DNA from: Halichondria panicea
Taxonomy: Eukaryota > Porifera > Demospongiae > Suberitida > Halichondriidae
Length of the DNA: 64,000 nt
NCBI RefSeq assembly: GCF_963675165.1
Contig: NC_087388.1
Span: 1,838,800-1,902,799, forward strand
Direction of reading: 5' to 3'
Shown: piece by piece, positions 737-30,841 of the stretch
Position numbering within the stretch: position 1 is the stretch's first letter
How the letters are laid out: each line of letters starts with the position of its first letter
The notes under the pieces: generated by a model
Seen by the model: the letters and a program-made list of their open reading frames with translations, nothing else
Told to the model about the DNA's origin: nothing
Databases searched by the model: none
Translations under genes and position numbers: made by a program

Positions 737-3218
737 TTAGAGTGAGAACTCCTTGAGATCAATATCTTCATCATCGGGATTGTTGACTTCTGCCAACTGT
801 ACACTGTCGTAAAGGGTGTTCTCAAACTCAGCAATGTCTGATCTCATCGTACCTGTGTTGGTTAGGTTTGTGGATGTAGTTTGTTCCAAGGAGTTGTCGG
901 GGATCGCGTACACTTGGTTGTCTCCATGCATCTCACTATTTGGAAAGTATGTAGTATTGATGGCTGTATGGCAACAGAGGGGCATATAGAACAAATAAAC
1001 GTTGACGCACGTGTGTACACATGCATCATTTATCGATAGTTTCAATACAAGCAATTCTCCTAAATACCTATAATGATAATCCACACAGGCTCTAATGTTT
1101 GGAATTCTCCCAATGCCTATAAATGGTTGTCACAATTATAGGTCCTAATAAACAGTAACTTGATGTAGCATTGATGACTGTATGGCAACAGAGAGATGTA
1201 TGGAACAAATAAACGTTAATACTTACGTGTATGTACACATTTATCTATGTTTTCTACAGTATAACTGTCAATACAAGCAATTCTCTTAAATGCCGAATCA
1301 TATAGGGCCCTAATAAACATTGATGTTTATAGACTCTCCAAAGCAACCAATGCCTAATGGTATTTGTCATTATTATAGGAAACAATAACTCTAGTATACA
1401 CGTCTATAACATTGTAAGGGAATATTTGATAACACACACATGCATGCACTCACAATTCTTTTTCTTTACAAGGTAGGCTATCGCCACTAGCAACAAGATG
1501 ATGATCAACACCAGCAGAAGCAGTGCAGCCGTTACTCCACCCAGCAGTGCCTCTATGACAACTCCATCCCACACTCCTGTAGGAAAAATGTATGTTACGC
1601 TTAGCTAACCTTCCTCTGTCTCTATTGTATATTATGTCAGGAATTGCTCACAAATACGTACACAATGTAATGTAATGTATGTATACCATTTGATTGCATA
1701 TCCATACTACACAGTTCTCCAGTGAATCCAGGATTGCAATTACAAGTGAAGTTAGTTTGTTCGTTAACACAGCAACCGTTTCTGTTACAATTCACACCAT
1801 AGCAATAATCAATCCTATTACATAGCGACCCAGTGAATGGAGGGTCACAGTTACACGAGAATGAGTTTATACTATCGATACACGTACCTAGTTCATTGCA
1901 ATCTTGATTCATGCAATCGTCAATGTTAGTTTCACAGGTCATACCTGTGAATCCGGTATTGCAGACACAGATATAGGAATTGATTCCATCCATACATTCA
2001 CCACTTCCGCTGCAATTCTGAAACTCACAATCGTCAATGTTCGTGCTGCAATTATCACCAGTATACCCAGCAAAACATACACAAGCATACGAGTTGATTT
2101 CATCCATACATTCACCATTTCCGGTACAATTTTGAAACTCACAATCATTAATGTTTGTGCTGCAATTATCACCAGTGTACCCAGCAGAACATACACAAGT
2201 GTATGAGTTGATTCCATCCATACACAGTCCTTCACCACTGCAGTTTTGACCATCACATTCGTCAATATTTGTCTCACAGTTTGTCTCAGAAAAACCTGGT
2301 GCACACTCGCAATGATAAGAGTTGATTTCATCAATACAGCGGCCATTACCACTGCAATTCTCATTTTCACAATCATTAATGTTTATCTCACAATCAATCC
2401 CAGTATAGCCAGGATAGCAATTGCAAATGAATGATAATTCTTCGTTGGTGCATTGTCCATTTCCATTGCAAGACTGATTAAACCGTTCACACGCATAAAA
2501 AACTGACATTGTCCTCCATTGTGAAATGGTGCACAGTACGCTTTAGCAGTTAGACTGATTATTACATGAGTGTGACTTCCTCGTATGCTGAACATTAAAC
2601 CAGCAGCACTGTTGATCTGAAGGAAACCGCCAAGTGGGATCGTGATTGTATCAACCAGATCATCCTGGGTACCATTATCTTTATCAACCACTATCACAAA
2701 CAGCTGGATATTATTCTGAAATTGAAAGCAAAATCGTGATACAAGTAATCAGTTTACACGAATTTTTACCTGCCAAGAGCCGTTAATAGTCCATGTTAGT
2801 GGATTGGGTACTCCAAAATCCGTTGAAGTGAAATTCAGAGAATCGCTATTAGGGATGATGTTTGTAGTGATTGTTGGTGTAAAACAGTCTGTGTTTGATC
2901 GTAGACAGAACGAGAAGAAATTATCACAGAGCTCATCTTCAGCACATATTCCATCATTCAAAAGATCGCTGTTTTCAGCTGGATCACAACATTCTCTATC
3001 GTTACCAACTGCTCTGCTCTCTGGGTTGTTGTAGGACCTCAGATTTACTTCAACTACATAGTCACACAGAGCTCAGTGGTCACTTAGCTGTACAGATTTT
3101 GTAAGATTGACAGGTATATTCTTAGACTAGTATAGTTACCTATAATATAAGGGCCTACTATATAGGCTAAAGAGTTTCTCACCATATAAATTGCAAGAAG
3201 AGCAAAATTGCACCTCAT
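737..3218 (-). pseudogene. Notch-ligand-like gene A (MNNL + EGF repeats + TM), broken
   Basis: Exons by homology to intact copies D and E: signal peptide 3218-3183 (MRCNFALLAIYM), MNNL 3087-2770, C2-like/EGF 2715-1687, transmembrane 1576-1454 (ALLLLVLIIILLLVAIAYLV followed by KKKN), cytoplasmic tail 963-737. Splice sites are GT-AG and phases match D. Two lesions are visible. The arginine codon after Ser-Asp-His in the MNNL exon is TGA (3075-3073); it is AGA in B-E. One base is missing from a T run near 2505, so the frame shifts between the 'GGQCQF' segment and the EGF array. One EGF repeat is also missing at that junction. The remaining EGFs are open. The tail ends DLKEFSL. It is either a recent pseudogene or an assembly with two errors; the two independent lesions favour a pseudogene. 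Confidence 0.75.
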
Positions 3219-3394
3219 CTTTGTATTTCACTTAAATTACATGTAGTAGTTTTACATAAGACTGCAGTCTTAACAGAGGCGTGGCCCTGGACTCGTACTG
3301 TTGCAATGTTGATTGCATTCCTTGCCTGCATCCTACAAATAATATCTACCCTTATAGGAGAATGTATTGGTGAGTTAAGAGTTATAACTCAAAT

Positions 3395-3480
3395 ACAGTG
3401 AGTCATCCATTCCGTGAATATCCTCTTTCACCCAAACTTTAGCAGGCAACGTCAGATTAGTCTCACACGTCCATCTGTCA
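3395..3480 (+). pseudogene. Relic of KDSR intron 2 / exon 3
   Basis: The stretch containing 'gagtcatccattccgtgaat' and 'tttagcaggcaacgtcag' resembles the KDSR intron 2 start and exon 3 (31242-31340), heavily diverged. It lies upstream of gene A exactly where the D block carries a better-preserved KDSR copy, so it is read as the remnant of the same duplicated unit. Confidence 0.45.
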
Positions 3481-3482
3481 CT

Positions 3483-3605
3483 TATTGGAAACAACATTAA
3501 ACACGTGTCTCAGTTTAACGGTAATGCTGTAATTGAACGGGATCTGTTATTTTTTACTAACAGAGCTCGCAAGTGTGCAGCTGAAAACAGTTCTCTCGTC
3601 AATGG
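3483..3605 (+). repeat. ~120-bp coding-like relic, copy 1
   Basis: Nearly identical to 26649-26768. One frame is open in both copies and reads ...KHVSQFNGNAVIERDLLFF, then TNRARKCAAENSSLVNG; the other copy differs mostly by substitutions that keep the frame open. The family was not recognised. Both copies lie just beyond the upstream end of a duplicated Notch-ligand-like/KDSR block, so the segment travelled with that block. Confidence 0.5.
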
Positions 3606-3835
3606 CCGTTTCTGTTACAATTCACACTATAGCAATAATCAATCCTCTCACATAGCGACCCAGTGAACGGAGGGTCACAGTTACAGGAGAATGAGTTTAC
3701 GCCATCGATACACGTACTGAGTCCATTGCAATCTTGATTCACGCATCATCAATGTTAGTTTTACAGTTCATACATTCACCACTTCCACTGCAATTCTAAA
3801 ACTCACAATCGTCGACGTTTGAGATCCATAAAATA
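3600..3835 (-). pseudogene. Orphan EGF-repeat fragment
   Basis: On the minus strand this matches the last EGF repeats of the neighbouring ligand-like genes (IDYCYGVNCNRNGH, NCDPPFTGSLCERIDYC). One base is lost in the Asn-Gln-Asp-Cys segment, and an internal deletion joins non-adjacent repeats. No MNNL, membrane or tail exon is attached. It fuses directly to the coding-like relic at 3605, which looks like a deletion breakpoint. Confidence 0.7.
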
Positions 3836-4777: not shown

Positions 4778-6969
4778 TCATTGAGAAATTCTTGTGAGAT
4801 CAATCTCTTCATAATCAGTATTGTTGACCTCTGTCGACTGTAAATTGGTGTTCTCAAACTCTGATCTCATCGTGTTGGTTAGCTTTGTGGATGTGGTTCG
4901 TTCCAAAGAGTTGTTGGGGATACTGTACGCTTCGTTGTCTTCATGTATCCAGCCATTAGAGAAGTGAGTAGCTATGATAACAGAGAGCCATATATGGACA
5001 ACCATAATACTGTCCATATAATGGTAACATTTATGTTTCTTCAATCTCCCAATTACATGCAGGTCCGTAATAAACTATATAGTCTGTAGCTCTGCTGCAC
5101 AGACCTTTAATAACACATGTAGTGCACTCACATTTCTTACAAGGCAGGCCACTGGCAACAAGATGATGGTCAACACTAACAGAAGAAGTGCAGCTGTTAA
5201 TCCACCCACTAGTGCCTCTATGATAACTCCATCTCCCAATCCTGTAGAAAAAATGCCTTAGCTAAACTTCCGAATACTTCCTCCGTCTCTATGGTATATT
5301 TTGTCAGGAACTGCTCACAAATACGTACACAATGTATGTACTGTATGTACCATTTGATTGCATATCCATACTACACAGTTCTCCAGTGAATCCAGGATTG
5401 CATTTACAAGTGAAGTTAGTTTGTCCGTTAACACAGCGACCGTTTATGTTATAATTCACACCATAGCAATAATCAATCCTCTCACATAGCGACCCAGGAA
5501 TGGAGGGTCACAGTTACAGGAGAATGAGTTTACGCCATCGATACACGTACCGAGTCCATTGCAATCTTGATTCATGCAATCGTCAATGTTAGTTTCACAG
5601 TTCATACCTGTAAATCCGGTATTGCAGATACAGGTATATGAATTGAGCTCATCCATACATTCACTATTTCCACTGCAATTCTGAAACTCACAATCGTCAA
5701 TGTTTGTGCTGCAATTAACACCAGTATACCCAGCATTGCATACACAAGTGTACGAGTTGATTCCATCCATACACAGTCCTTCACCACTGCAGTTCTGACC
5801 ATCACATTCGTCAATATTTGTCTCACAGTTTGACCCAGAAAAACCTGGTGCACACTCGCAACGATAAGAGTTGACTTCATCAATACAGCGGCCATTACCA
5901 CTACAATTCTCATCTTCACAATCATCTATGTTTATCCCACAATCGATCCCAGTATAGCCAAGATTGCAATTGCAAATGAATGATGATTCTTCGTTGATGC
6001 ATATTCCATTTCCATTACAAGACTGTTCAAAGCAATAGTCTATCAACTCACAATTTCTCCTGTGAAGCCACCATTACAGACACAGGTATAGCTGTTCCTC
6101 ATCTTAATACACATGCCACTTCCACTGCACATGATGCTATCACGTTCACACACATCAACGAACTGACATTGTTCTCCACGGTAAAATTGTGCACAGTGCA
6201 CTCTAACAGTTAGACTCATCTTTCCATAATTGTGAATTCCTGATACGTTAGTCAGCGTTAAGCCAGCACTGTTGAGAACGTCGCTTCGTAGTTGGACTGT
6301 AATTATATCAACAAGATCATCGGAATCATTTTCCTGAGAATCCCTATCTACCACCACTACTAGCCTCGATCCCAGGCCGAGTTTTCGCTTTTATAACGGT
6401 TAGGCGAACAACTACCGGCCTGGGATCGAGGCTACCACCACTACATACAGCTGGGTACCATTCTGAAATGGAAGTTTAGTAATATTTATACTTTTGTTAG
6501 TAAAATTATCTTACCCAAAGTCGGTCAACAACAGTCAGTGTTATTATATTAAGTCCAGTTGAGGTGAATTCAAGAGAATTATCATTCAAGACAATGTTTG
6601 TAGTACCCATCGGCTGTGTGATGCATCCACTTGTTTCTGTAGGTTGAGTACTGAATGGGCGCAAACAGAATGTGAAGAAGTTATCACAGAGCTCATCTTC
6701 AGTGCATATTCCATCATTCAAAAGATCACTGTTTTCTGCTGGATCACAACATTCTCCATTGTTACCAGCTGCCCTACTCTCTGGGTTGTTGTAGGACCTG
6801 AGATTTACTTCAACCACATAGTCACACAGAGCTCTGTGGTCATACAGATTTTGTAACATATAATTATTGAGCAGAATATTCTAGTCTATAGTGAGATCTA
6901 GAGATCTGTGATTTTCTCACCATAATTATAAATCACAAAGAAATAGAGAAGAGTAAAATTGCACCTCAT
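4778..6969 (-). pseudogene. Notch-ligand-like gene B (MNNL + EGF repeats + TM), broken
   Basis: Exons by homology: signal peptide 6969-6921 (MRCNFTLLYFFVIYNY), MNNL ending at 6515, C2-like/EGF 6462 to ~5352, TM 5241-5132, tail 4971-4778. Lesions: an ~8-bp deletion removes the acceptor before the MNNL exon near 6838; a 74-bp hairpin element is inserted in the EGF exon (6361-6434); one base is lost near 6050 (GAT to AT in the first EGF) and another near 5497 ('cccaggaatgg' against 'cccagtgaatgg'); and 7 bp are missing at the end of the TM exon, throwing the tail exon out of frame. Five lesions together make it very unlikely to encode the full protein. The closest relative is C. Confidence 0.85.
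6361..6434. mobile_element. 74-bp hairpin element inserted in an exon of gene B
   Basis: Perfect 19-bp inverted ends (TAGCCTCGATCCCAGGCCG at 6361-6379 and its complement at 6416-6434) flanked by a perfect 10-bp direct repeat CCACCACTAC (6351-6360 and 6435-6444). Copies C, D and E have a single version of that site, so this is an insertion with target duplication. Relatives are at 16954, 55345 and 62775. Confidence 0.9.
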
Positions 6970-7202: not shown

Positions 7203-7830
7203 GGTTGAACCAAGGGCGTATACAGAGAAGAGGGCATGCAACTCACTATGTATCCTACGTACTCATCCTACTTCGTATCAGAGACCGGATATGCTAAAAA
7301 TAGAATCCAGTATACGGACGTGAACAAGTGGGCGGTGTTGTTTACGGAGTTATAATTATGGGCGTGTACATCAGAGCTGCCTAGCTAGCTAGCTAGCTAA
7401 CAGTGCAGTATTATTTTAGAGAAGTGTCATGACCAGTCCTAGTCCAGCCAGGTCCAAGACAACCCCTTCGAGCATGAAGTTGAGTGCTGGGCGCATTGTT
7501 AAGAAGTACCAGAGACTCAGGAAGACAGATTATTGTACCTAGGTTTCATCTTCTTGGAGTTGCAACTGTTGGATGGTTTGCCTTTGCCTTTGACACTGCT
7601 AGTACAAGCCATACTGCTGCTGAGAACTAGTTTTACTATGCTGCAATCGAGCTAGCTAGCTGGCACAGATATAAAAAATACTTTGATTTACCTTGTGCGG
7701 TCAAAGGTTACGCGTGGGCGTTTTGTGGGCAGTTCTAAAAATAGCTCAATACGAACGTACGAAGTCGGATGATTCTGAGAATGGGGCGAGTTGCATGCCC
7801 TCTTCTCTGTATACGCCCTTGGTTGAACCA
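7203..7830. mobile_element. ~610-bp inverted-repeat element upstream of the ankyrin-ROCO gene
   Basis: Terminal inverted repeats of about 33 bp begin AGGGCGTATACAGAGAAG at 7213 and end with the complement at 7819. The flanks carry the direct repeat GGTTGAACCA (7203-7212 and 7821-7830), consistent with a 9-10 bp target duplication. The interior has no long reading frame and includes a GCTA tetranucleotide run near 7380. Confidence 0.85.
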
Positions 7831-7927
7831 TAGATTGAAGAGTTAGACTCAACGTAAAATACACACACTGACAATTGATTGTGCTATAGGCTAGTGACCA
7901 ATTTAATATACGTTAACGTACATCAAC

Positions 7928-10900
7928 ATGAGTATCCACATGCTCGGTCTGACTGACAGGACTGCTCAAGGTAGCCCTCGTTGGAAGCTGGTGAGAGCAT
8001 GCAGGGAAGGTGATCTGGACATGGTGAAACAACTGTGTGAAGACGACTACCCATTTGAAGAAGAATCAGAGCCTAATGTTCCTCTGCATGAAGCGTGTTG
8101 GTATGTTTTTAGCAATCACATGCAGGCCTATATTAAATATGTGTATGTATACCTATCAATGTCAGTCCCCACTATACCCAGGGCCCTCCCTGCAGAGCAT
8201 AGTGAGGTTTTGTTGGGGTTTTGATTCAGCAAGTAACCTGGGTTATTGGTTATTAAGTGGAGGGGAAGTAGGGATTTAATTTCAACCAGGCCCCTAGGGA
8301 TAGGGCAGTTGATATTGATACAAATCAAATCCCACTAAACTCCGACATAGCCCGTATGGGGGATAGTGGGGACTTGAAATTGATAGGTGCATAACGAGGA
8401 CTTTATCGTTTTATGCCTAGCTAGGCGCCTATAGATAACTAAGCTCAGAGCTGTTGCCTTGTATACATGTAGGTGTCATTATGCCTCACAGGGTTTTCTG
8501 TGGTTGTATATGGGGAATTTTTCTTGCATAATTATTATAATTATCTGTGGAATTCCTTAAGCTTTATTAGGTTGTCATACACCAATGTTCTGCTTGCTAT
8601 TATACAGGAGTGGGCATTTGAATATTGTTAAGTACCTGATTGAAAGGAAGCAGTGTAATATTTACAACGAGTCTTCTATCGGATGGACAGTTGTTCACTC
8701 AGCTTGTGCGTAAGTTAACCATATTAATAATAATTATAGTGCATAGTTGACACAACGGCAAGCAGGCCCGTATTTCAGAGGAGGTTGAAGAATGACATTA
8801 ATTTTTAGTTGTGACCTGCATGGCTATAGATAGTGAGTGGACCACAGTGTCAGTGCAAACCCAAGTGAAATTGTTGATAATGGCTTTAATAATGAATGAG
8901 CTATTATTATGTCTCATCACTATAATATATAGTAAATAATTATACTCTCAGAGGCATAAATAACACATCTTGATTGTCCTGACAAGTTGTCTTAGCATAG
9001 TACATTTTGTTCTGCCATCAGGTGATATTATTTATTGGTCGGACACTAAATTACCCATGCAATGTACTAAGTAATCTACTAAGTAATCTATAAAAAAAGG
9101 GAGGCTTTAGGGAAGATAAGGTAATGCTTAGCACATAAAATAGAAGCTTACCAGTCGTCTTGTCACTATGCTACATAGATATAATAATATGCATATCTAG
9201 GCCTTCTTCTGTGCAATAAAGACACATGCATGGCTGTTATGAGATCATTATTTTAGTGCACATCGCATCATAACTATGACCTTTGGCTAGGACACTATGA
9301 CCGAGCAAGTAGCTAAATGGCCGGTCAAATAGGCTAATTGCTCGGAAATTGACCAATGACCGACTGTTATTTATACCTCTGTACTCTGGGCAATAATTAT
9401 AATTATATAGATGTATAGAAATGACACAGGGTTGCATGCAGGAGTACGTACCATTCTGTTTGCTTATTATAGGGTGTAGGTTGTGTCTATCCTTCTAAAT
9501 GCATCATAATTATTATGTATGTAATATCTATCCTTCTAAATGCAGGTATGATCAATTGCATATTGTGAGGTATTTTATTGAAGAACGAAGTTGTAGTGTG
9601 AACATGACCAATTATTGTGGGTGGACCCTACTACACACCAGCTCCTGGTATGTTACTGTGCTTTAGAATGGTATCCAATTGATTTACGGGGTTGATCAAT
9701 GAGTTACATTTCCTTGTGTACAAATGTGGCTCTTTCATACTGCAAGACCGTTCAAGCTTAGCTACATTATCCCGTTGCTACGTTGTTGCTAAGTGCAATA
9801 TGGATAAAACTAACCAAAAAGTCATCACTAACCACTAACACCCCTCTGGCATTAGACTGACGTAAGAAACTAGAGCACTAAAGTGCAAACCCTCGGCTGG
9901 TGACATGATTATGAAGAAACCAGAAGAGTGATATAATGCAGTGCATGTAGTGATGTATGACTGAGCTATCTAGCACAGCAACTCAGGAGCAATCAGTAAA
10001 ACTAAACCAGACTGGAGGCATGCTGAAAGAGTTTTAGTGGCACATAGGCATGCACAGTGGACTAGGGCCTGAGTCTAGGATCACAGCAAAGAAGCCTGGA
10101 GTCTCAGAGAAGTATGGCTCCTGGAGTAGGATCCCGGAGGTCGAGTCAGCACAGAGTTAGAGCAACAAACAAGTCACAATTCTAGCTTTCTATTATAGTG
10201 ACCCTTTTCCACTGTTTTTGGTACAGGATCACTTCAGCTGTAAAAGCGGAGGGTACCTCGAATAAAGGTCGCGTGTAATTAGCTAGCTAGCTGCCAATGT
10301 GCAAGTTCAAGCTTCTTAGTTTTTGCTCGCTTTTATTCGACAACAAAGCTCTAACATCGAAATCTACCATTGATAACTTACATGTATTGTGTGAAGGCTA
10401 TCCATGCTATAAACGCAGTGCTATGGCTGCCAGGTGAGCAGACCCAGAAATTACAACAGACAAACAACGCGCGCCTCGAGTAATAACATAATGAGAAATA
10501 CAAGTATCAAAGTTAAGTCCAGCCATGCAGGGTAATGTTAATGTTCAGCACTGCTGCATGGAGTTTCTTCTTCTTTGCACATGCACTGAGAAGGTTCATT
10601 TTGTGGAAGATTATGTGTTTCTAGTCCCTCGTGATGCATGGCTTAGTTAAGTCCTTCAATTCTGCTTCACCGTAATATAAGCATCTAGAAGCACTCAGGA
10701 TACATGGCATATATTGCACTCAGCCCTCAGGGCTTATATTATACGCCCTCGTTCCTCAGTGCAGTATATGCCATACATCTCTCTTGCCCATAATTAGTAT
10801 ATTATAATCATAGATATAAGAAGGGAGAGGGATGGGGAACGCTACGTAAATAGCATTGACGATCCGCATTTCGGTCAATGTTTTCTTCTTTATTTCCTCC

Positions 10901-13900
10901 AGCCCATGCTTTTAGCTAGTACTAGGCTATAAACTAGCTACTGAGCTCCATGTATTAGCAATGGCTAGTGAAACAGTCACAACAAGGTAGCAGCAATAGT
11001 TAGTGAGACCCCTCCAAGCAGTAAAAAGCAGCTTGGACAGGCAAATTCTTGAGAGGAGCTCTGTCTGTACCGTTGAGTATTCCAGTACAGTCACAGTCAT
11101 GATAGAGAATTATGGAAATGTAGCGAAGTTCTGTCGTAAATTACTGTCGATACGATGAACTAACTATTAATGAGACATTTACCTACATTCAATCATTGAT
11201 ATAACTTTCTAAATGGGTACACAAAAAGTCTGCTTGTCAAAACCAACTTACTAAGACAAAAATGAACATCTTACCAACCTAAAGCCAAGTGGCTTTGATT
11301 TTACTTGCATACAATGCCCAGCTATACTTAAGAAAGAGGGAATCATTAATATGTTGGGCTGCAGTCACAGCCTCTCCTTGTAGAAGGTACACAAAGCCAC
11401 TAGATAGAGCCGAAATGATAATACAACACTCAAAAAACTGCCTTTAAAAGCTTTCAAGCTTTTGGTAAGATACACAACGCTTCTATATGATGCACAGTAG
11501 GCTCAGCACAGCACTAAGAGTCCCAGTGGGGCATTTTGTGGTTAGTGCACTATGCTGCATATGCCGGATATAACGTTGTTATCCTGTGTTAGCTGGTATC
11601 CGGCTAACAGTTAGTGCATGCGCAACCACCAGGCCCATCTCTGAGAGGAAGTGAGTGTGGGGTCGAAGTTAGTCACATATAATTATACAAAACGAAAAAA
11701 ATTAACATTACCAAACTTATGAGATTATTTTACTTACATTCTTTATCCTATGCACAGGGGTGGAAGTGTGAATGTGGTGAAATACCTCATGGAAGATAAA
11801 AATTGCATTGTTGAGTGTACTGACGATAACGGATATACCCCACTACATTGGGTGTGTCGGTAAGTTATAGTTATAGCACGGGCACGAGGGATGTATGGTG
11901 TATATAAATTGCACTAAAGCATGAGGGCGTAAGCCCCGAGGGTTGAGTGCAATAGACCAGTTGCGCATAAGCCATGAGGAATTTACTAATTAATTTACTT
12001 ACCGTGACGTGACGATTGGACTGCTCCGGAAAATTCACTTTACTGGCAAATCAATGTAAAAATTGCACTGCATGCGCTTTGACCTAGCCTCCTTCGCAGC
12101 CTCTCCTTTTTCTGTTCTTTGTCACAGAAGAGAAAATTGGAGGAACAAAGAAAGAAAGAAGGAAGCAACTAAGAAAAAGGAGAGCCTGCCTTGCTAAGTC
12201 GCGTGATCCCCTACTGACGTCGACAAATTTTAACGAGCGTGGGCGAGAGAAAACCTCAATAACTGTCTTCCCACACAGTACTTGGAGCGCATTTACCAGG
12301 AACATAATCTGTTATGAACAGTACAGTACAGTGCAGCAGAGTCAGCCTTCGTGAGACCTTTAGTCAGTAGAGGAAGTATGAAAGACTAGAGTAGAGTAGA
12401 CTATACTGCTGTAATAATTATATCTACTAATCAAGTGGGTCTGTTCTGAACTCAGGAAAAAAAACTGAGCTAAATTTAGATATTTAGTCTCTTTAGTCTT
12501 TACTAGGTAAGCCCTTGTCTACGATGTCTCCACGCTTGATTCTAGCTTACTATCTACGATGCTAACAGCTTTTATTTAGAGTTTGCAATGCGTAGGCATG
12601 CTGTAGCTTTTTGCTCTGTCAGGCTCCGCCCAGCTAGTGATTGCCCACGTTCATTTTCACTCGTCTACCGTCACGCGACTTAGCAAGGCAGGCTCTCCTT
12701 TTTCTTAGTCTCTTCCTTCTTTTTTTCTTTGTTCCTCCAATTCGTCCCGTATTTTATCTTATTGAACTACAGTGACAAACAACAGAAAAAGGAGAGGCTG
12801 CGAAGGAGGCTAGCTTTGACCAGAGTTCATTGCATCATAAAGATCTGTTTATCTATTTAAACAACGTACAGCTAGCTAGAGAGTAATAATTTCTACTGCA
12901 TGTGGAGTTTGAAGTAGCTTTAGAGAGCAGCGGAATGAGCTAAATTCTGGAGTAAACTGTAAAGAGATGTCTGGCAAGATCTGCTGCCTCTGTTTAGAAG
13001 ATGGGCCCCCATATTTCTTTGTACTGCTTCCCAGAGCAGAGTAGATAGTAGTTGGAAGTTTTAGAACGTCCAAGATTCGACTGGGTAGGTTTTTTGCATC
13101 ACCAGAAGAAAGTGTCTTTAAAGACTCTCATAGATGGTTTTACTTCATGTTCTTGGACTTCTAACACTTCCAACCACTCTCTACTCTTCTCTGGAAGCAG
13201 TACAAAGAGATCTGGGGACCCATCTCATAAACAAAGGCAGCAGGTCTTGCCAGACATCTCTTTACTCCAGATTTTAGCTCATTACCACTTATATGTCCAG
13301 TTTAACTTGCTTTCTAGAGCTACTTCAAACTCCACATGCAGTAGAAATTATTACTCTCTAGCTGTATGTTGTTTAAATAGATAAACAGATCTTTACGATG
13401 CAATGAACACTAGCTGGTCAAAGCACATGCAGTGCAATTTTTACATTGATTTGCCAGTAAAGTGAATTTTCCGGAGCAGTCCAATCGTGACGTCACGGTA
13501 AGTTAATTACTAATTAAATTCCTCATGGCTTATGCGCAACTGGTCTATTACGTATATGCCATGCATCCCAAGTGCACGTGTTATAACTAGTTTATATCCC
13601 GAGGGCATAGCAACATAACACTATCTTAGTAACACAATTAAACTGAACAATAATAAAAAGAAGAGTCAACCCTAGACACAGCTCCATCTCCAATTCTCTC
13701 TTCTAGACGATATAATTATGTGCCAGTATCTGCAGCGTATAATATTGTCATGGACCAAGGAATGGCTTAAATTGACACAAAATTGTTGGAGTTCCAATGC
13801 TGAAATCTGAAATCACTCCTGCTTTCCCACCCCACTTCTGCTGCTACAAAACAGCCCTACTCCACTGCTGCTCGGTCTCACAATCAAGCCAAAGAAGCTC

Positions 13901-16900
13901 GACTCTATACACTGCTGCAACACAGCTCAAGCTATAAATAGCCCCCATGCAGCAAAAAGATCCGCTTCTAGACGCTTGTGCTATGTGGTGAAGCAGAATT
14001 GACATGCATCACGAGGACTAAGTCTAGAACACATGCAGAATCTTCCACAAAATGAACATTTGAAAAACCTGCATGGTTGCAAACAAGAAACTCCAGCAGT
14101 GCTGAACATTCCTGCATGGCTTTGTTATTTCTTATGATGTTAATAATAATTTTATGTCTGTCTAATGCCAGAGGGGCATAGTGCATTATGACTTTGTGGT
14201 TAGTGCATTATGCTGCATATTGCACTTGGCAACACGTAGCAACGGGATATAAGTCTTATAATTACCTCTTCCACTCTAATACTTGAGCAAAAGTAAAACA
14301 TGGCGAGAGGCATTAGCACAGCGCAGCTTGTTATACTACAATAGCCTGCTCGAAATGGTAACATAGGCGTCCATAATATATCGAGTATTGTTGTAAAAAC
14401 TAGTGGAGCCTCTGAACGAGAAGGCTTAATTAAGAGCAGACACTTAGACTGAGGGCCTATTTAAGAGCCTAGTAAAAGCGTATCTATATACAAATGAGAA
14501 GAATGTATACTATTACCTGCGACCATCTTCGATAGGAGGATCCACCATATGGCAGCCATACTAAGAGTAAATGTTGTGTTGTTTTAGTCAATCATTTATG
14601 TATATGTACTCTGCAAAATATATCGGGCGTCTATACAATGTCTATATAACTTATGTATATGCATTCAGTACACTCATTACAATTCTGCAGTTCAATGGGA
14701 GTAACCGATACAGATCGAAGACTTGAAGTAATGAAATGTCTTTTAAGGTCACCTGAATGTGACCCGACAAAAAGAGATTGCTTTGGAATGTCTGCTCTTC
14801 AACTCTTATCAAGGGGTGGCATTGGCATTGGTGCAAACCGAAACCTGGCAATACAGTTGCTACTTAATCACAATGCCCCACCACCAGATGAATCCTGGGC
14901 AAAGTTAGTGGATCAACAACCTCCTGAAGCATACACCAAATTGTTTCTAATGGGGTTTCCAGGAACAGGGAAAAGTACGCTTGCTAAATCGATCAAAACG
15001 GATGTTGAAGACGATGTGAAAAGCCTCGCTCATCGATTCAAGAAAGTTTGTGATGTTAGTAAAAATACGAGTGGCATTGTTCCAAGCGACATTGAGAGCA
15101 AGAGGTTTGGTTTGATGACAATCTATGATCTCGCAGGTCATAGTGAGTTCTATGCCAGTCACAATTTCGCCTTGAGAAGCATTTTAGCTGGGTCTCCTTC
15201 TTCCATCATACTTCTAGTCGCTGATATAAGCACTGAGCAGGATTCTCTTCGTAAAGCTATCTTACATTGGTGTAATTTTGCTTCTAATCTTTTTGACTGT
15301 CAATCGAATGACAAACCGTTTCTATTTATCATTGGGAGTTATGCTGATAAAGTGTCTGTGAAAGATATTGAGTCGTGTAAAGTTATAATTGAGAGTCTCA
15401 CATCCAGAAGATTATTCTCAACGTTTCAGTTGCATTCTTTTCTTGCCCTCGATTGTCGATACCCTGTGTCAGCAGATATGACCCAGCTGCGCTCTCATAT
15501 ATCAGACTGTTGCCAGAGCATAAAACAACAGCAAGAAATTAATATTCAGCAGCATTGCTTTCTTGTTGGAATTATAAGTGAATTTGGTCATAGAGATGCC
15601 TTCACCATTGCTGAATTGATCACCCATGCTGAACAATCATCTATCACTTCATATTTCAGCAAATTTATCTGTGAAGTAGAGCGTACCACCATTGTGAGAA
15701 TGTGTATCAAGCTCAACATGCGAGGAAACATTCTCTTTCTTCAAAACCAGTGCAGTTCAATCGATAGTTGGATAGTGCTCAAAAAAGATGTTTTATTAAA
15801 ACGAATTTGTGGATCAATTTTTGCTCCTGATTCATTTGAGGACCATAAACCTTTGGCTTCTGACACTGGCATCGTTCCTGCTTTCAAACTTGCTGAGGAG
15901 TTTCCTGATGTTGATACCAAGTTGATTATCTCTATCATGTCTCATTTTCAGTTTTGCCATGAAGTTACTGACCCTGAGATCCTTGATCAGCTCTCGGTTG
16001 TATCCTTTGCTAGTACCAAATACCTTTTCTTTCCAAGCTTAGTCACTGTCACAACACCTCAAGGAATTTGGGACCCTCAAAGCCAATTTTCATATGAATC
16101 TGTGTGGATTATGAAATGTCGAAATGATGAGCAATTTTTCATATCGAATTTTATGCACGTGACAATCCATTGTCTTGCATTCTCATTTGCGATGGCCCCA
16201 AGTTCTTCCTTGTCTGCAAAATTATCAATTCAGAGAAGATGTAAAGTATGGAAAAATGGTATTTTTTGGCGATCCTTGTGTGGTATTGACATCATTGTTG
16301 AAGTTGACAGCAAAAGCATAGCTTTGTATATTCGAGCAAGAAAAGATTGTGAGCTAGATGCTGTTAAATTGCGATCTCAGTTGATTTCAAGAATTCTGAC
16401 CACAAAATCTGAATATTGCAAGGAGGTGGAAGTCAATGAGTTTTTCGTGAAACCTGATTGCATTACTTTCCCCTTGGGTAATGATGATAAACTTGTCAAT
16501 TTGTTAGAAATTGCACGTTCAATCTCTACGTGTAAACCTTTCGCATTTGATGTAGCTGATATGCTTGTTGAAATTCAAGCCCTTCTTCACTTCGAGCCTT
16601 TCTTTGACCTAGGAGAGAGTGTTCTCTGTGAGTTGTTTAACCAAGATGCCGCTGTGACTATAACCAACAAATTCCTTTTAAAACTTGCTGAAAAGTCCCA
16701 CCGCAAAATGAATGTTTTTGTCAAGGTCTTAGACATATCAGATTATGCACTGGCAATAGCTCTCGAAGGTGCTCGACCCTCTAATAATGTGGACAAATTT
16801 TATCGTGTACTCGAGTATTGGCAAAGTCGATATCCTACTTACAGTGAATTGCGCACCACATTTGCTGAGTATAGTATATTTGTTGGACGCAACCCATTAG

Positions 16901-16920: not shown

Positions 16921-16953
16921 ACATAATAATTTTTTGTGTATAATTATACTATA

Positions 16954-17027
16954 TAGCCTCGTCCCCATGCCGATTTTTCTCTAATGGACCGTTTTATTAA
17001 TGAAAAATCGGTATGGGGACGAGGCTA
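16954..17027. mobile_element. 74-bp hairpin element downstream of the ROCO gene
   Basis: TAGCCTCGTCCCCATGCCGA and the near-perfect complement ending CGAGGCTA form ~25-bp arms around a ~24-bp loop. Same size and same terminal TAGCCTCG as the exon insertion at 6361. It lies 33 bp after the ROCO stop codon, so it may be within the 3' UTR. Confidence 0.8.
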
Positions 17028-17520
17028 GATCTAGTACAGTAAATGCATTGCTTTTTTGCTCTTGAACTAATTTTATACACATTGTAATTTTGTATGTCAT
17101 TGTCTCTGAAAGAACAACATTTTTTAAATTGTCAAACCTATACAAACAATTTCATGTTCAACAGTATACATGTAATTATCGAAATATACCATGCAGTGAC
17201 CGATATCAAGTTATAAAAAATGCGCTTGATTGTTATTTGCAAAACAGTGCCACTTTAGAAACAGGGGTTACTGAAGATTTTAAAGGAAAATTCCAAGATT
17301 ACGTTGAAATTCCACACACTTTTTAGTTGTCTACTACCAGTAGTTATAGGCGAGCACAATTAATCATTATCTATTCTGTTATAACAGCCAAAGTATAAAT
17401 GTATACGTTCAGCATGTCTAAATTAAAGACACTGATAATCGTGCAAAATTATTAGTGGTATAAACGTGCATATAGTTCCTCACTGAGACTTGAAATGCTC
17501 TTATAATTGTCATTGAGAAA

Positions 17521-19865
17521 TTCTTGTGAGATCAATCTCTTCATAATCAGTATCGTTGACCTCTGTCGACTGTAAATTGGTGTTCTCAAACTCTGATCTC
17601 ATCGTGTTGGTTAGCTTTGTGCATGGATGTGGTTCATTCCAAAGAGTTGTTGGGGATATATACCGTAATAATATGCTTCGTTGTCTTCATGTATCCAGCC
17701 ATTAGAGAAGTGGGTAGCTATGATAACAGAGAGCCATATGGGTAACCATAATACTGTCCATACAAACGATAGTTAAATGCTTATAATGATAAATAACATT
17801 TATGTTTCTTCAATATCTCCCAATTACATGCAGGTCCGTAATAAACTATATAGTCTGTAGCTCTGCTGCACAGACCTTTGATAACAAATGTAGTGCACTC
17901 ACATTTCTTACAAGGCAGGCCACTGGCAACAAGATGATGATCAACACTAAGAGAATAAGTGCAGCTGTTACTCTACCCACTAGTGCCTCAATGACAACTC
18001 CATGCATTCCCCACTCCTGTAGAAAAAATATATGTTACGCTTAGTACTACACTTCCTCTGTCTCAGGATCTCACAATGTAATGTATGTGCCATTTAATTG
18101 CATATCCATACTACACAGCTCTCCAGTGAATCCAGGATTGCATTTACAAGTGAAATTAATAATTATGTTCGTTAACACAGCGACCGTTTCTGTTACAATT
18201 TACACCATAGCAATAATCAATCCTCTCACATAGCGACCCAGTGAACGGAGGGTCACAGTTACAGGAGAATGAGTTTACGCCATCGATACACGTACCGAGT
18301 CCATTGCAATCTTGATTCACGCAATCGTCAATGTTAGTTTCACAGTTCATACCTGTAAATCTGGTATTGCAGACACAGGTATATGAATTGAGCCCATCCA
18401 TACATTCACCATTTCCACTGCAATTCTCAAGCTCACAATTATCGACGTTTCTGCTACAATTAACACCAGTATACCCAGCAAAACATACACAAGCGTACGA
18501 ATTGATTCCATCCATACATTCACCATTTCCAGTACAATTTTGAAACTCACAATTGTCAACGTTTGTGCTGCAATTAACACCAGTATACCCAGCAAGACAT
18601 ACACAAGCATACGAGTTGATTCCATCCATACATTCACCATTTCCGGTACAATTTTGAAACTCACAATCATCAATGTTTGTGCTGCAACTAACACCAGTAT
18701 ACCCAGCATTGCATACACAAGCATACGAGTTGATTCCATCCATACACAATCCTTCACCACTACAGTTCTGACCATCACATTTGTCAATATTTGTCTCACA
18801 GTTTGTCCCAGAAAAACCTGGTGCATACTCGCAATGATAAGAGTTGACTTCATCAATACAGCGGCCATTATCACTGCAATTCTCATCTTCACAATCATCT
18901 ATGTTTATCTCACAATCAATCCCAGTATAGCCAGTATTGCAATTGCAAACGAATGATGATTCTTCGTTGGTGCATATTCCATTTCCATTACAAGACTGTT
19001 CAAAGCAATAGTCTATCAACTCACAATCTTCTCCTATGAATCCACCATCACAGACACAGGTATAGCTGTTCCTCATCTTAACACACATGCCACTTCCACT
19101 GAACATGATGCCATCATGTTCACACACATCAATGAACTGACATTGTTCTCCATGGTAAAATTGTGCACAGTGCACTCTAACAGTTAGACTCATCTTTCCG
19201 TAATTGTGAACTCCCGATACGTTAGTCAGCGTTAAGCCAGCACTGTTGAGAACGTCGCTGCGTAGTTGGACTGTAATTATATCAACAAGATCATCGGAAT
19301 CATTTTCCTGAGAATCGCTATCTACCACTCCTACATACAGCTGGATACCATTCTGAAATGTAAGTTTAGTAACATTCATACTTTTGGTTAGCAAAACTAT
19401 CTTACCCAAAGTCGGTCAACAACTGTCAGTGTTATTATATTAAGTCCAGTTGAGGTGAACTCAAGAGAATCATCATTCAAGACAATGTTTGTAGTACCCA
19501 TCGGCTGTGTGATGCATCCACTTGTTTCTGTAGGTGGAGTACTGAATGGACGCAAACAGAATGTGAAGAAGTTATCACAGAGCTCATTTTCAGTACATAT
19601 TCCATCATTCGAAAGATCACTGTTTTCAGCTGCTGGATCACAACATTCTCCATTGTTACCAGCTGCTCTACTCTCTGGGTTGTTGTAAGACCTGAGATTT
19701 ACTTCAACCACGTAGTCACACAGAGCTCTGTGGTCACTTAGCTGTACAGATTTTGTAACATAATTATTGAGCAGAATATTTTAGTCTATAGTGAGATCTA
19801 GAGATCTGTGATTTTCTCACCATATAAATCACAAAGAAACAGAAGAGAATAAAATTGTACCTCAT
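17521..19865 (-). pseudogene. Notch-ligand-like gene C, ectodomain open, membrane part disabled
   Basis: Exons: signal peptide 19865-19821 (MRYNFILFCFFVIYM), MNNL 19741-19406, C2-like/EGF from 19352, TM 18016-17903, tail 17717 to ~17521. Signal, MNNL and nearly the whole EGF array are open (nine EGF-like units). A 4-bp insertion near 18162-18170 ends the frame inside the last EGF (RCVNEHNY, then stop). The TM exon lacks the same 7 bp as B. The tail has ~10 bp of insertions, and a TGA replaces the CGA found in E after NNSLE. It cannot make a membrane-anchored ligand as written, but could make a secreted MNNL-EGF protein of about 530 residues. Decay of a B-like duplicate is the simpler explanation. 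Confidence 0.75.
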
Positions 19866-20124
19866 CTTTGTATTTAACTTTAGTCCACTAGTAGAGGTGG
19901 TCTAGATCTCTGTCTATTGTTGTTAATTTTATGCGCATGTGCAAGTGCAAAAACAGAGGTGTGGCTGCATGGGTGCTTTTTCGCCATTCAATCTCTCTAA
20001 CCCAGAATGAGTTTATCTCAATTGAATTGTACACCCTCTTACTAGATTTAGCAGTGGTGTATTGATGCTATGAATAGGAGATGCAGCTGTGTACTGATTA
20101 AAGTAGTCATCCATGCCGTTAGGG

Positions 20125-20262
20125 GTTCCGATACTCCTGATGCCGTGAACTTATCATATCCTTGGCTTTCATTCAAACTTTAGTAGGCAATGCAGGCAAA
20201 GTCATGCAGATAGAGAGTTTTATCTCCACCAGCTCTATAATACGTACATCACGTACTCTGTT
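20125..20262 (+). pseudogene. Relic of KDSR intron 2 / exon 3 upstream of gene C
   Basis: The block with 'AGATAGAGAGTTTTATCTCC' and 'ACCAGCTCTAAT' matches KDSR exon 3 (31330-31366), but its upstream part is degraded and the donor GTACAT is altered. As at genes A and D, a KDSR fragment lies upstream of the ligand-like gene, marking the original head-to-head pair. Confidence 0.7.
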
Positions 20263-20369
20263 TGTAAACACGTTCTCAATTAATTTTACCACTTTAAGTA
20301 CAAGATATCTTGTTAGTAGAACAAGATATAATAATATTGGATCTTTATACCAGTATAGATAATTAGGTA

Positions 20370-21129: not shown

Positions 21130-23849
21130 TTAGAGTGAGAAATCCTTGAGATCAATATCTTCATCATTGGGATTGTTGACTTCTGCCAACTGTACACTGT
21201 CGTAAAGGGTGTTCTCAAACTCAGCAATGTCTGATCTCATCGTACCCGTGTTGGTTAGGTTTGTGGATGTAGTTTGTTCCAAGGAGTTGTTGGGGATCGC
21301 GTACACTTGGTTGTCTCCACGCATCTCACCATTAGGGAAGTATGTAGTATTGATGGCTGTATGGCAACAGAGGGGCATATATAAACATGATGCATGTGTA
21401 CACATTCATCCATAGTTTCAATACTGTCAATACAATACAAGCAATTCTCCTAAATGCCTATAATGATAATCCACACAGGCTCTAATGTTTATGGAATTCT
21501 CCCAATGCCTATAAATGGTTGTCACAATTATAGGTCTTAATAAACAAAGAAAGTAAACGTAATGTAGCATTGATGGCTGTATGGCAATAAACGTTGATAC
21601 TATATACGTGCATGTACACTTCTCAGTATAATTGTCAATACATGCAAGCAACTCTCATAAATGCCGAATCATATAGGGCCCTAATAAACATTGATGTTTA
21701 TGGACTCTCCAAAGCAACCAATGCCTAATGGTGTTTGTCAATAGTATAGGAAACAATAACTCTAGTATATACATGTAGTAAGTCTATAGCATTGTGGGAA
21801 TATTTGATAACATAAGTCATGCATGCATGCACTCACAATTTTTTTTCTTTACAAGGTAGGCTATCGCCACTAGCAACAAGATGATGACCAACACTTGCAG
21901 AAGTAGTGCAGCCGTTACTCCACCCAGTAGTGCCTCTATGACAACTCCATCCCCCACTCCTGTAGAAAAAAATGTATGTTACGCTTAGCTAAACTTCCAA
22001 ATGCTTCCTCCGTCTCTATTGTATATTATGTCAGGAATTGCTCACAAATACGTACACAATGTATGTACTGTATGTACCATTTGATTGTATATCCATACTA
22101 CACAGTTCTCCAGTGAATCCAGGATTGCATTTACAAGTGAAGTTAGTTTGTTTGTTAACACAGCGACCGTTTCTGTTACAATTCACACCATAGCAATAAT
22201 CAATCCTCTCACATAGCGACCCAGTGAACGGAGGGTCACAGTTACACGAGAATGAGTTTACGCCATCGATACACGTACCTAGTCCATTGCAATCTTGATT
22301 CACACAATCGTCAATGTTAGTTTCACAGTTCATACCTGTGAATCCGGTATTGCAGACACAGATATAGGAATTGATTCCATCCATACATTCACCACTTCTG
22401 CTGCAATTCTGAAACTCACAATCGTCAATGTTCGTGCTGCAATTATCACCAGTATACCCAGCAAAACATACACAAGCATACGAGTTGATTTCATCCATAC
22501 ATTCACCATTTCCGGTACAATTTTGAAACTCACAGTCGTCAATGTTCGTGCTGCAATTATCACCAGTATACCCAGCAAAACATACACAAGCATATGAGTT
22601 GATTTTATCCATACATTCACCATTTCCGGTACAATTTTGAAACTCACAGTCATCAATGTTCGTGCTGCAATTATCACCAGTATACCCAGCAAAACACACA
22701 CAAGTATACGAGTAGATTCCATCCATACATTCACCATTTCCGGTACAATTCTGAAACTCACAATCGTCAACGTTTGTGCTGCAATTAACACCAGTATACC
22801 CAGCAAAACATGCACAAGCATACGAGTTGATTCCATCCATACACAGTCCTTTACCACTGCAGTTCTGACCATCACATTCGTCAATATTTGTCTCACAAAT
22901 TGTCCCAGTATAGCCAGGATTACAGTCGCAAATGTATGAAGATTCTTCATTACTACATGTTCCATTTCTATTGCAAGGGTTGTCAAAACAATAGTTTATC
23001 AACTCACAGTCTCCCATGAAATCACCATTGCATACGCAGGGATAGTTGTTCATCATCTTAACACACACGCCACTTCCACTGCACGTGATACTATCACGTT
23101 CACACACATCAATGAATTGACATTGTTCACAGTACACTTCAGCAGTTAGATTGATCATTCCATGTTTTTGATTTCCTTCTATGTTAGTGAACATTACTCT
23201 GTTGAGACCAAGTTCGATAGTGAATGTATCAACCTGATCCTGGGTACCATTATTATCGTTATCTACCACCACCACATACAGTTGGATACCATTCTGAAAC
23301 AGAAAGTATAGTAATGATACAAGTAATCAGTTTCCAATTTTTACCTGCCAAGAGCCGTTAACAGTCCATGTTAGTGGATTTATAGGTACTCCAAAATCAG
23401 TTGAGGTGAAATCCAGAGAATCGTCATTAACGGGAATGTTTGTAGTAACTATTGGTGGAGTGATGCATCCACTTGTTTCTGTAAGTGAAGTATTGAATGG
23501 ACGCAAACAGGATATGAAGAAGTTATCACAGAGCTCATCTTCAGTGCATATTCCATCATTTGAAAAATTGCTGTTTTCTGCTGGATCACAACATTCTCCA
23601 TCGTTACCAGCTCTGCTCTCTGGGTTGTTGTAGGACCTGAGATTTACTTCAACCACATAGTCACACAGAGCTCTGTGGTCACTTAGCTGTATTAGATAAC
23701 AGTACGTAAAATCAGTCGACAGGAATTTTAGTATATTAGAGTCTACCATACGGATCTAGAGACTAGATCTACTTACACCTAGACTGCACAGTTTTTCTCA
23801 CCATAACTGCCAAGAAGCAGACAAGAGCAAAATTGCACCTCATCGACAT
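21130..23849 (-). CDS. Notch-ligand-like type I membrane protein D (MNNL, 9 EGF, TM)
   Basis: Five exons: 23849-23802, 23686-23345, 23293-22078, 21959-21837, 21356-21130; phases agree, giving ~651 residues (a second ATG at 23843 is possible). Order: short signal peptide (RCNFALVCFLAVM), MNNL module with the Jagged/Delta-type pattern ECCDPAEN...CTEDELCDNFFISCLRP, a C2-like remainder, a shortened DSL-like start (EVYCEQCQF), nine EGF repeats mostly of calcium-binding type (NIDDCEFQNC...GYTG), TM segment (residues ~540-575), then a ~75-residue tail ending DLKDFSL. The canonical DSL cysteine pattern is absent, so Notch binding is inferred from MNNL architecture only. A function as a cell-surface ligand is likely. 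An alternative is a lineage-specific adhesion protein with a borrowed MNNL. Confidence 0.82.
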
Positions 23850-27673: not shown

Positions 27674-28226
27674 ATGAAAGCACCGAAGGTGCTGATGCCT
27701 CGGTGGAGATGCCAAAGCTACATAACATAAAGCTACTAATAGCTTTTATACATGATTAGTTTGCATGCAAAAACTCTGAGAGTGGGTAATGATCGATCAT
27801 GATTGTTGTTAAAAACGATCGATGCCAAAAGTTCAAGTCTAAAATTAATGGCTGCATTTAGCAGAGCCTTGCAGCTCTCTTCTCACTCTTGCAGCTACCA
27901 ATAGCTAGCGTTCTAGTGCAGAGATAACTACTAAGTAGAGTAGCAGCACTCGGTAAACAAGTTTGGCTACGTGCTCTTCTGAAAAGGCTGCAATGGCATT
28001 CCAAGTAAGCAAAACTAGGCATAACTCGAGAACGAAGCATTATTTTGCAAATCCACGAATTAAAATCCAAGTAAACATGACTAGAAGCCTATAGAAACTC
28101 TTACTTGCACTTGATTCATCCTTGAGCAGGTGTATCAGTCTACACAGACACACAGATACACAGACACACACACAGACACACAAACACACTACCATATACC
28201 TCGCTTGCGCATGCGCACCGAGGCAT
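27674..28226 (-). mobile_element. ~550-bp inverted-end element, copy 1 (reverse orientation)
   Basis: Ends are ATGAAAGCACC...GGTGCTGATGCCTCGGTGG and TTGCGCATGCGCACCGAGGC. Copies 2 (34654-35169) and 3 (62836-63363) are in the opposite orientation and collinear throughout (shared TTTACTTGGATTTTAATTCG, then GTGGATTTGC). No coding capacity is visible. It contains a CA-rich microsatellite next to one end. Confidence 0.85.
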
Positions 28227-28584
28227 AATTATGTGATGAAGTCTAGGACCTTAGCTGTACAAGATTACTGCTCTAACCGATTACCCACTATAACAATTTG
28301 CTGTTGTTCTATTAATCACCACAAACCCACCACCTTATGTTTCCATGGAAACATTTTTGGGTATGTTGTAGCTTGGTCATTCATCTACACATGGTATCAG
28401 CATAATTTCTTAGAAATGTTTCAATCGAAAGATATTTACATTTAAGTACAACTACTCACAAATTTGTGGTAATCTACTCTCTAAGCTGGATGCACTGTAA
28501 ATTAAAGGCACTAATAATCGTGCAAAATTATAGTGGTATAAACGTACATGTAGTTCCTCACTGAGACTTGAAAAATTCTAATTA

Positions 28585-30841
28585 TCATTGAGAAATTCTT
28601 GTGAGTTCAATCTCTTCATAATCAGTATTGTTGACCCCTGTCGACTGTAAATTGGTGTTCTCAAACTCTGATCTCATCGTGTTGGTTAGCTTTGTGGATG
28701 TGGTTCGTTCCAAAGAGTTGTTGGGGATACCGTATGCTTCGTTGTCTTCATGTATCCAGCCATTAGGGAAGTGGGTAGCTATGATAACAGAGAACCATAT
28801 GGACAACCATAATACTGTCCATACAAACGATAGTTAAATGCCTATAATGATAAATAACATTTATGTTTCTTCAATATCTAATGGTTTCTCCCAATTACAT
28901 GCAGGTCCGTAATAAACTATATAGTCTGTAGCTCTGCTGCACAGACCTTTGATATCACATGTAGTCACTCACATTTCTTTTTCCTTACAAGACAGGCCAC
29001 TGGCAACAAGATGATGATCAACACTAACAGAAGAAGTGCAGCTGTTAATCCACCCACTAGTGCCTCAATGACAACTCCATCCACTCCTGTAAAATAATAT
29101 ATGTTACGCTTAGTACTACGCTTCCAAATGCTTCCTCTGTCTCTATTCTTTGTCAGGATCTCACAAATTTACAATATAATGTATGTACCATTTGATTGCA
29201 TATCCATACTACACAGTTCTCCAGTGAATCCAGGATTGCATTTACAAGTGAAATTAATATGTTCGTTAATGCAGCGACCGTTTTTGTTACAATTCACACC
29301 ATAACAATAATCAATCCTCTCACATAGCGACCCAGTGAACGGAGAGTCACAGTTACAGGAGATCGAGTTTACGCCATCGATACACGTACCGAGTCCATTG
29401 CAATCTTGATTCACGCAATCATCAATGTTAGTTTTACAGTTCATACCTGTAAATCCGGTATTGCAGACACAGGTATATGAATTGAGATTATCAATGCATT
29501 CACCACTTCCGCTGCAATTTTGAAACTCACAATCGTCAATGTTTGTGCTGCAATTAACACCAGTATACCCAGCGTCGCATACACAAGTATACGAGTTGAT
29601 TTCATACATACATTCACCATTTCCACTGCAATTTTGAAACTCACAATCGTCAATGTTTGCGCTGCAATTAACACCAGTATACCCAGCATTGCATACACAA
29701 GTATACGAGTTTATTTCATCCATACATTCACCATTTCCACTGCAATTTTGAAACTCACAATTGTCAATGTTCGTGCTGCAATTATTACCAGTATACCCAG
29801 CATTGCATACACAAGCATACGAGTTGATTCCATCCATACACAGTCCATTACCACTGCAGTTCTGACCATCACATTCGTCAATATTTGTCTCACAGTTTGA
29901 CCCAGTATATCCAGGATTACAGTCGCAAATGTATGAAGATTCTTCATTACTACATGTTCCATTTCTATTGCAAGGGTTGTCAAAGCAATAGTTTATCAAC
30001 TCACAGTCTCCCATGAAATCACCATTACAGACACAGGGATAGTTATTCATCATCTTAACACACACGCCACTTCCACTGCACGTGATACTATCACATTCAC
30101 ACACATCAATGAATTGACATTGTTCACAGTACACTTCAGCAGTTAGACTGATCATTCCATGTTCTTGATTTCCTTTTATGTTAGTGAACATTACTCTGTT
30201 GAGACCAAGTTCGATAGTGAATGTATCAACGTGATCCTGGGTATCATCATTATCTTTATCAACCACTACAACATACAGTTGGATACCATTCTGAAACAGA
30301 AAGTATAGTAATAATACAAGTAATCAGTTTCCAATTTTTACCTGCCAAGAGCCGTTAACAGTCCATGTTAGTGGATTTATAGGCACTCCAAAATCAGTTG
30401 AGGTGAAATCCAGAGAATCGTCATTAACGGGAATGTTTGTAATAAATATTGGTGGAGTGATGCATCCACTTGTTTCTGTAGGTGGAGTATTGAATGGACG
30501 CAAACAGGATATGAAGAAGTTATCACAGAGCTCATCTTCAGTGCATATTCCATCATTCGAAAGATCGCTGTTTTCTGCTGGATCACAACATTCTCCATTG
30601 TTACCAGCTCTGCTCTCTGGGTTGTTGTAGGACCTGAGATTTACTTCAACCACATAGTCACACAGAGCTCTGTGGTCACTTAGCTGTATTAGATAACAGT
30701 ACGTAAAACTAGTTAATTAAACAGGAATTCCAGCTAGATCTAATATCTAGATCTATAGATCTACTACTACTCACGCCTAGACTGCACAGTGATTCTCACC
30801 ATAACTGCCAAGAAGCAGAAAAGAGTAAAATTGCACCCCAT
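28585..30841 (-). CDS. Notch-ligand-like type I membrane protein E (MNNL, 8 EGF, TM)
   Basis: Five exons: 30841-30800, 30683-30342, 30290-29189, 29086-28973, 28778-28585, all GT-AG and in phase, ~597 residues. Order: signal peptide (MGCNFTLFCFLAVM), MNNL (ECCDPAENSDLSNDG, then CDNFFISCLRP), C2-like part, shortened DSL-like start (EVYCEQCQF), eight EGF units, TM segment with LLLLVLIIILLPVACLV followed by RKKK, and a 64-residue tail ending ELTRISQ. The ectodomain is closest to D, but the TM and tail exons are closest to B and C. It has one EGF repeat fewer than D. The start codon lies 134 bp from that of KDSR on the other strand. No stop or frameshift is seen, so it is probably functional. Confidence 0.83.

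Follow-up and report, generated by a model that had tools for sequence, protein, structure and literature searches.

The window analysed here is a stretch of 64,000 nucleotides from the sponge Halichondria panicea (G000:C12:1838800-1902799), and it was studied together with the 131-Mb, 39-contig assembly from which it is taken. It carries a tandem array of genes whose products combine MNNL, the N-terminal domain of Notch ligands, with EGF repeats. An earlier reading made from the letters alone (the sequence-only reading) had described five same-strand copies with a common five-exon plan, two of them intact and three disabled in different ways, together with an orphan EGF fragment, and all of this is borne out (Table 1): copies A to E lie on the minus strand, D and E splice cleanly, and A, B and C carry lesions. 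The cluster of six genes and fragments in 30 kb which it proposed is likewise real, but the array runs past the window edge, with four further copies (U1 to U4) and tail fragments upstream, U1 being intact (594 amino acids) and U2-U4 disabled. The whole array comprises nine copies across about 55 kb, of which three (D, E and U1) are intact and six disabled. The tail exon at 740-963, which had been taken for an orphan, is best read as that of copy A, because its distance from the transmembrane (TM) exon of A (491 bp) matches the tail-to-TM distance in D (481 bp).

The copies share a plan of five exons, encoding in turn a signal sequence (14-15 codons in intact copies), the N-terminal half of MNNL, the C-terminal half of MNNL with the entire EGF array, the TM segment and the tail. 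Introns of the intact copies are GT-AG with phases 0, 0, 1 and 1, and all splice sites are present, so that D, E and U1 yield full-length intact proteins upon splicing. The hydrophobic first exon and the single TM exon were identified by visual inspection of the spliced sequences, and EGF repeats, counted by pattern, number 7-9 per protein (7 in U1).

Table 1. Features of the window (positions are those of the window)
Feature	Position	Strand	Details
Copy A (pseudogene)	740..3218	-	exons 1-5: 3183-3218, 2770-3087 (in-frame stop), 1687-2715 (frameshift), TM 1454-1576, tail 740-963
Orphan EGF-repeat fragment	3602..3745	-	from translation
Copy B (pseudogene)	4781..6969	-	exon 1 6921-6969 (49 nt, out of frame), exon 2 6515-6842 (acceptor lost), exon 3 about 5351-6462 (frameshifts), TM exon 5132-5241 (7-nt loss at donor), tail 4781-4971
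Part of segmental duplication of about 21 kb	7817..20330	.	partner -12310 to -1382, upstream of the window; two longest pieces about 97% identical
Copy C (disabled)	17524..19865	-	exon 1 from 19865, exon 2 19406-19741, exon 3 from 19352 to a stop, TM exon 17903-18016, tail from 17717 (low end approximate), the last two out of frame
Copy D (intact, 649 amino acids)	21130..23843	-	exons 23802-23843, 23345-23686, 22078-23293, 21837-21959, 21130-21356; 9 EGF repeats (pattern)
Copy E (intact, 597 amino acids)	28585..30841	-	exons 30800-30841, 30342-30683, 29189-30290, 28973-29086, 28585-28778; 8 EGF repeats (pattern)

Pieces of the copies are 68-97% identical across hundreds to thousands of bases, which excludes chance likeness. 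Through a tandem duplication of about 21 kb, U2 corresponds to A, U3 to B and U4 to C (pieces 91-97% identical), and the members of each pair have damage in common: the frameshift near the start of EGF repeat 1 in exon 3 of A and U2, the exon-3 frameshifts of B and U3, and, in C and U4, an exon-3 stop that falls within the last EGF repeat of C together with a 7-nt loss, which in C lies beside the exon-4 donor as it does in B. The genes were therefore broken before the unit was copied, and these lesions are not random sequencing errors. Others are private, namely the nonsense codon in exon 2 of A, the missing exon-2 acceptor of B and, relative to U3, the 7-nt loss of B. The birth-and-death tandem locus of the sequence-only reading is thus supported, and extended by the shared lesions and the segmental duplication. 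Within the duplicated unit lies a 756-amino-acid open frame (window 14650-16917, plus strand), which has a P-loop and matches the Roc GTPase family below threshold (20.7 bits against a cut-off of 27); its neighbourhood also has a copy of about 97% identity upstream.

Part of the copy number could be an assembly artefact, with unmerged haplotypes placed in tandem. The unit of about 21 kb is about 97% identical to its neighbour across the two longest pieces, two pairs of loci on contig C6 have one common offset (33,311), and on C16 (4.72M and 4.75M) loci L003/L004 and L010/L011, 30.8 kb apart, are identical over the 5.2 kb compared (two overlapping stretches), being either a very recent duplication or an assembly duplicate. 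However, A and U2 differ by 8.6% and the two longest pieces by about 3%, and window copies A-E, which are 68-90% alike in the listed pieces, look too different to be mutual alleles; we consider this explanation unlikely, although the unit of about 21 kb itself may be an assembly duplicate.

The domain content of the proteins was determined on spliced models. Pfam PF07657 (MNNL) matched D with 43.0 bits, U1 with 44.2 and a third gene of the same kind with 26.4 (cut-off 22.5); at the level of single exons, matches with E values of 7e-7 to 3e-4 were listed for four of the five copies in the window (all but A), and spliced D reached 4.4e-11, so that the exons do match the Notch-ligand N-terminal profile, the point on which the sequence-only reading had made its identification depend. 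No PF01414 (DSL) match was obtained at E<=10 in the same three spliced proteins, whereas the positive controls, two genes of this genome in which DSL is present, gave DSL at 1e-10 and 4e-12. Eight further DSL-less exons were tested for DSL, seven giving no match and one a sub-threshold match of 11.1 bits (cut-off 24.2), and none of the 26 matches of the genome-wide DSL search falls inside the array. What survives of DSL is its first loop, C-x8-C (e.g. CAPFYSGSSC), shortened in D and E to C-x2-C (CEQC); where the DSL core G-H-Y/F-x-C would be expected, a six-cysteine EGF repeat 1 begins instead, in the same exon.

A search of PDB with the single sequence of U1 gave matches confined to EGF-repeat regions, and profile searches were needed. 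Using a profile of nine DSL-less rows alone, which replaced an earlier one mixing DSL and DSL-less rows in order to avoid circularity, we recovered Drosophila Delta (3.4e-13) and Jagged-1 (1.4e-9), and also Jagged-2, Serrate and a Delta-like protein; the alignments of Delta and Jagged-1 extend through the first DSL loop, which indicates that the homology is real and the loss of DSL precise. The description "Notch-ligand-like" therefore holds as regards MNNL homology (43-44 bits and the Delta/Jagged profile matches) and omits that the array gave no DSL match; "candidate Notch ligands" is not supported, as of DSL, the domain by which the ligand family is defined and Notch is bound, the copies read retain no more than the first loop, and genes with DSL occur elsewhere in the genome. 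An early-branching animal, as supposed in the sequence-only reading, would fit the domains found. Judged from domain content, the array genes very probably encode DSL-lacking Notch-ligand homologues and not canonical Notch ligands.

The array belongs to a larger family. Family searches of the genome found MNNL at 29 places and DSL at 26, the latter representing 22 distinct loci. Using four protein queries followed by clustering, we found 71 MNNL-exon loci, of which 51 are followed by a DSL-less exon, 12 by DSL and 8 by neither; a locus is called DSL-less when its nearest downstream exon match is to a DSL-less query, and these counts are lower bounds, the 51 including pseudogenes and possible assembly duplicates. 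In five of the 51 the match ends before EGF repeat 1 (U2, A and three on C6), and in the remainder it runs into that repeat. The main DSL-less clusters are at C14:5.64-5.73M (15 loci), C6:3.97-4.03M (15) and C12:1.81-1.87M (9, the present array); long open frames occur at many places in the clusters outside C12, parts of which are known from search coordinates only. In a tree of 39 rows, from which C15_1341358, C15_53320, C14_5643203 and C17_4361342 were omitted as long-branch or fragment rows, one branch (97/96) parts the 32 DSL-less from the 7 DSL rows.

Other loci of the family depart from these arrangements. Tandem genes with both MNNL and DSL at C2:2.05-2.09M (L028, L029) have no EGF repeats seen in their frames, in which a Ser/Thr-rich stretch and a TM segment follow, and two frames of 275 amino acids with three DSL matches each (G000:C4:5457205-5457588 and 5594023-5594406, 136.8 kb apart) resemble cnidarian multi-DSL genes. 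Near the MNNL gene L032 (C15:46.5-56.5k) no EGF exon was seen, and a proline-rich frame there has repeated YDLPP and three NPxY motifs. In the DSL-less gene L030 (C9:6.579M), intron 2 is apparently 51 bp, in frame and stop-free, and if it were retained the protein would read through. When two C14 copies were compared without gaps, 572 of 2,500 positions differed, probably because of indels, and this figure was not used.

Ratios of nonsynonymous to synonymous substitution (dN/dS, Nei-Gojobori, without a significance test) were calculated for the pairs D-E, D-U1 and E-U1, in that order: 0.36, 0.50 and 0.42 for the whole gene, 0.21, 0.26 and 0.28 for the EGF part, 0.76, 0.87 and 0.76 for MNNL, and 0.55, 1.0 and 0.45 for TM plus tail; all pairs that involve exon 2 of copy A are invalid, its in-frame stop having disrupted the codon alignment, and were ignored. 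With intact copies and constrained EGF arrays, the genes have the architecture of surface receptors, which we state with high confidence. The family could nevertheless be a mostly decaying relic, in which duplication keeps copies of little function and C would give at most a secreted ectodomain: six of the nine array copies are disabled, broken genes were duplicated together, and exons 1-3 of C form a 525-amino-acid frame without a TM segment. This is improbable in view of the three full-length intact genes with every splice site present, of the constraint that the EGF and whole-gene ratios denote, and of the many long open frames in other clusters.

The copies also appear to be mosaics. D and E share their MNNL and EGF parts and have different tails (A-type in D, B/C-type in E), and their synonymous divergence (dS) rises from 0.05 in MNNL to 0.24 in the EGF part and 0.33 in TM plus tail, a pattern such as unequal crossing over or conversion would be expected to leave. 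Exon 2 of U3 is closest to C (dS 0.013) and not to B (0.137), although U3 otherwise pairs with B, a sign of conversion or exchange. These mosaics, the clusters of 15, 15 and 9 loci and the high MNNL ratios would fit hypervariable recognition receptors, engaged in allorecognition or the sensing of microbes, that owe their diversity to the large number of clustered copies and to the exchange of modules between them. Gene conversion alone can yield mosaics, however, and other near-identical tandem duplicates exist in the genome, and we hold this explanation to be rather unlikely.

As to role, clues come from the two ends of the protein. N-terminal fragments of four human Notch ligands bind liposomes and Delta-like3 did not; substitutions in the calcium loop of the Jagged1 C2 domain, which is formed by MNNL, abolish this binding, although the C2 domains of Delta-like ligands lack a calcium site and yet bind (PMC5538765). 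Across the nine DSL-less rows, the D-x-D pair aligned with the calcium loop of Jagged1 does not vary. At the other end, 8 of 15 DSL-less tails, U1 included, have two or three copies of NPxY, and all 15 have the N-x-x-Y form, counts that are not a fair sample because the pattern by which most tails outside C12 were chosen included tyrosine motifs; the tails of D and E, for which that pattern was not used, have the N-x-x-Y form only. The engulfment receptors CED-1, Draper and MEGF10 combine an EGF ectodomain with an NPxY tail (PMC8092387). Because of C2 liposome binding, the tail motifs and the likeness to engulfment receptors, we think adhesion, uptake or recognition more likely than canonical Notch activation, though our confidence as to role is low to moderate; the proteins probably recognise something other than Notch. 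By analogy with these systems, a role specifically in uptake or recognition is possible, at somewhat less than an even chance. Taken as a whole, the data make it slightly more probable than not that these are type I receptors which arose from the scaffold of a Delta-like Notch ligand and expanded within the lineage, and in which the tips evolve fast, the EGF arrays are conserved and the tails carry tyrosine motifs.

Several observations weigh against this reading. The raised MNNL ratios may reflect relaxed constraint, and misaligned repeats could distort those of the EGF part. A tree of 43 rows, for which 6 of 49 exon pairs had been removed as fragments or low-scoring, one being a DSL gene, does not split the classes cleanly and needs three label changes; on very long branches, DSL gene C15_1341358 falls among the DSL-less rows and DSL-less C15_53320 outside them. 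Because of these three changes, a single loss of DSL is likely but not proved. Besides the manner in which the tails were chosen, strict NPxY is missing in 7 of the 15, D and E among them, it occurs in one of three DSL-gene tails, and in Amphimedon, Deltas 2-5 also have predicted PTB sites (PMC3482393). A structure model of D, built from exons 2-3 and read through the 51-bp intron between them with the intron stop set to W and 8 window rows, was too poor to use (pLDDT 36, pTM 0.21).

The connection with Notch itself also has to be considered. DSL-less proteins such as DLK1 have been proposed as weak or cis inhibitors of Notch, and the array proteins could similarly be modulators of the pathway, their MNNL and EGF array binding Notch weakly or in cis and inhibiting it. 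In ligand-receptor complexes of known structure, one of the sites of contact with Notch lies in MNNL (PMC5538765), which also tells against the receptor reading, weak binding of Notch through MNNL being possible by analogy; Notch-type LNR modules, moreover, occur at two loci in the genome. Against a modulator role, there are 51 DSL-less loci to these two LNR loci, fast evolution would be unexpected of an MNNL held to one conserved receptor, and EGF sites of the O-fucose type are few (two of nine repeats in D, two of eight in E and one of seven in U1), and we judge such a role unlikely.

The family has spread into tandem clusters on several contigs, with turnover through duplication, exchange and decay. 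On the favoured receptor reading, its members, being without DSL, would not switch on Notch in the canonical manner; the C2 tip might touch membranes, or ligands at the surface of other cells or of microbes, the EGF array would act as a spacer, and the tail could recruit PTB or SH2 adaptors for uptake, adhesion or signalling. It is a more doubtful suggestion that DSL loss in an early-branching animal turned the scaffold of a Notch ligand, a signal of development, into large, clustered, fast-turning sets of variable recognition or uptake receptors for self/non-self or microbes.

Genes that retain MNNL but have lost DSL are easily overlooked. Five Deltas, all with DSL, are described in Amphimedon; as Deltas 2-5 came from searches with DSL queries (PMC3482393), that approach would have passed over genes without DSL. 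In a survey of choanozoans, evidence for Delta counted as strong where MNNL and DSL were both present, and four choanoflagellate species had just one of them (PMC6040629); by this rule such a family is demoted. In the present genome, 51 DSL-less loci stand against 22 distinct DSL loci, and 12 MNNL-exon loci have DSL downstream. In the literature searched, partly seen and with most subscription papers outside its scope, we found no description of a DSL-less MNNL-EGF family. As it separates C2 from DSL function, the family offers a natural test of Notch-independent adhesion or membrane recognition by C2.

Like the array proteins, Delta and Jagged ligands have a signal sequence, an MNNL/C2 domain with matching cysteine pattern, EGF repeats and one TM segment, and their first DSL loop (C-x3-YYG-x2-C type) is recognisable in the array proteins; they differ in that DSL of the array proteins ends after this loop, the EGF array shares an exon with the C-terminal half of MNNL, and the genes form large clusters. 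Non-canonical ligands of the DLK1 and DNER type likewise have EGF repeats and a TM segment and no known DSL, but they are not known to have MNNL, whereas MNNL of the array is strong. CED-1, Draper and MEGF10 are, like the array proteins, type I receptors with an EGF-rich ectodomain and a tyrosine-motif tail (PMC8092387); by contrast, D has an MNNL N-terminus and no EMI domain among the ten families listed for the full-length protein at E<=10, and D and E are without strict NPxY. Finally, cnidarian DSL genes, which are DSL-only or combine one MNNL with three DSL (PMC2770060), are also recombinations of Notch-ligand modules in an early-branching animal, but DSL was multiplied there and lost here.

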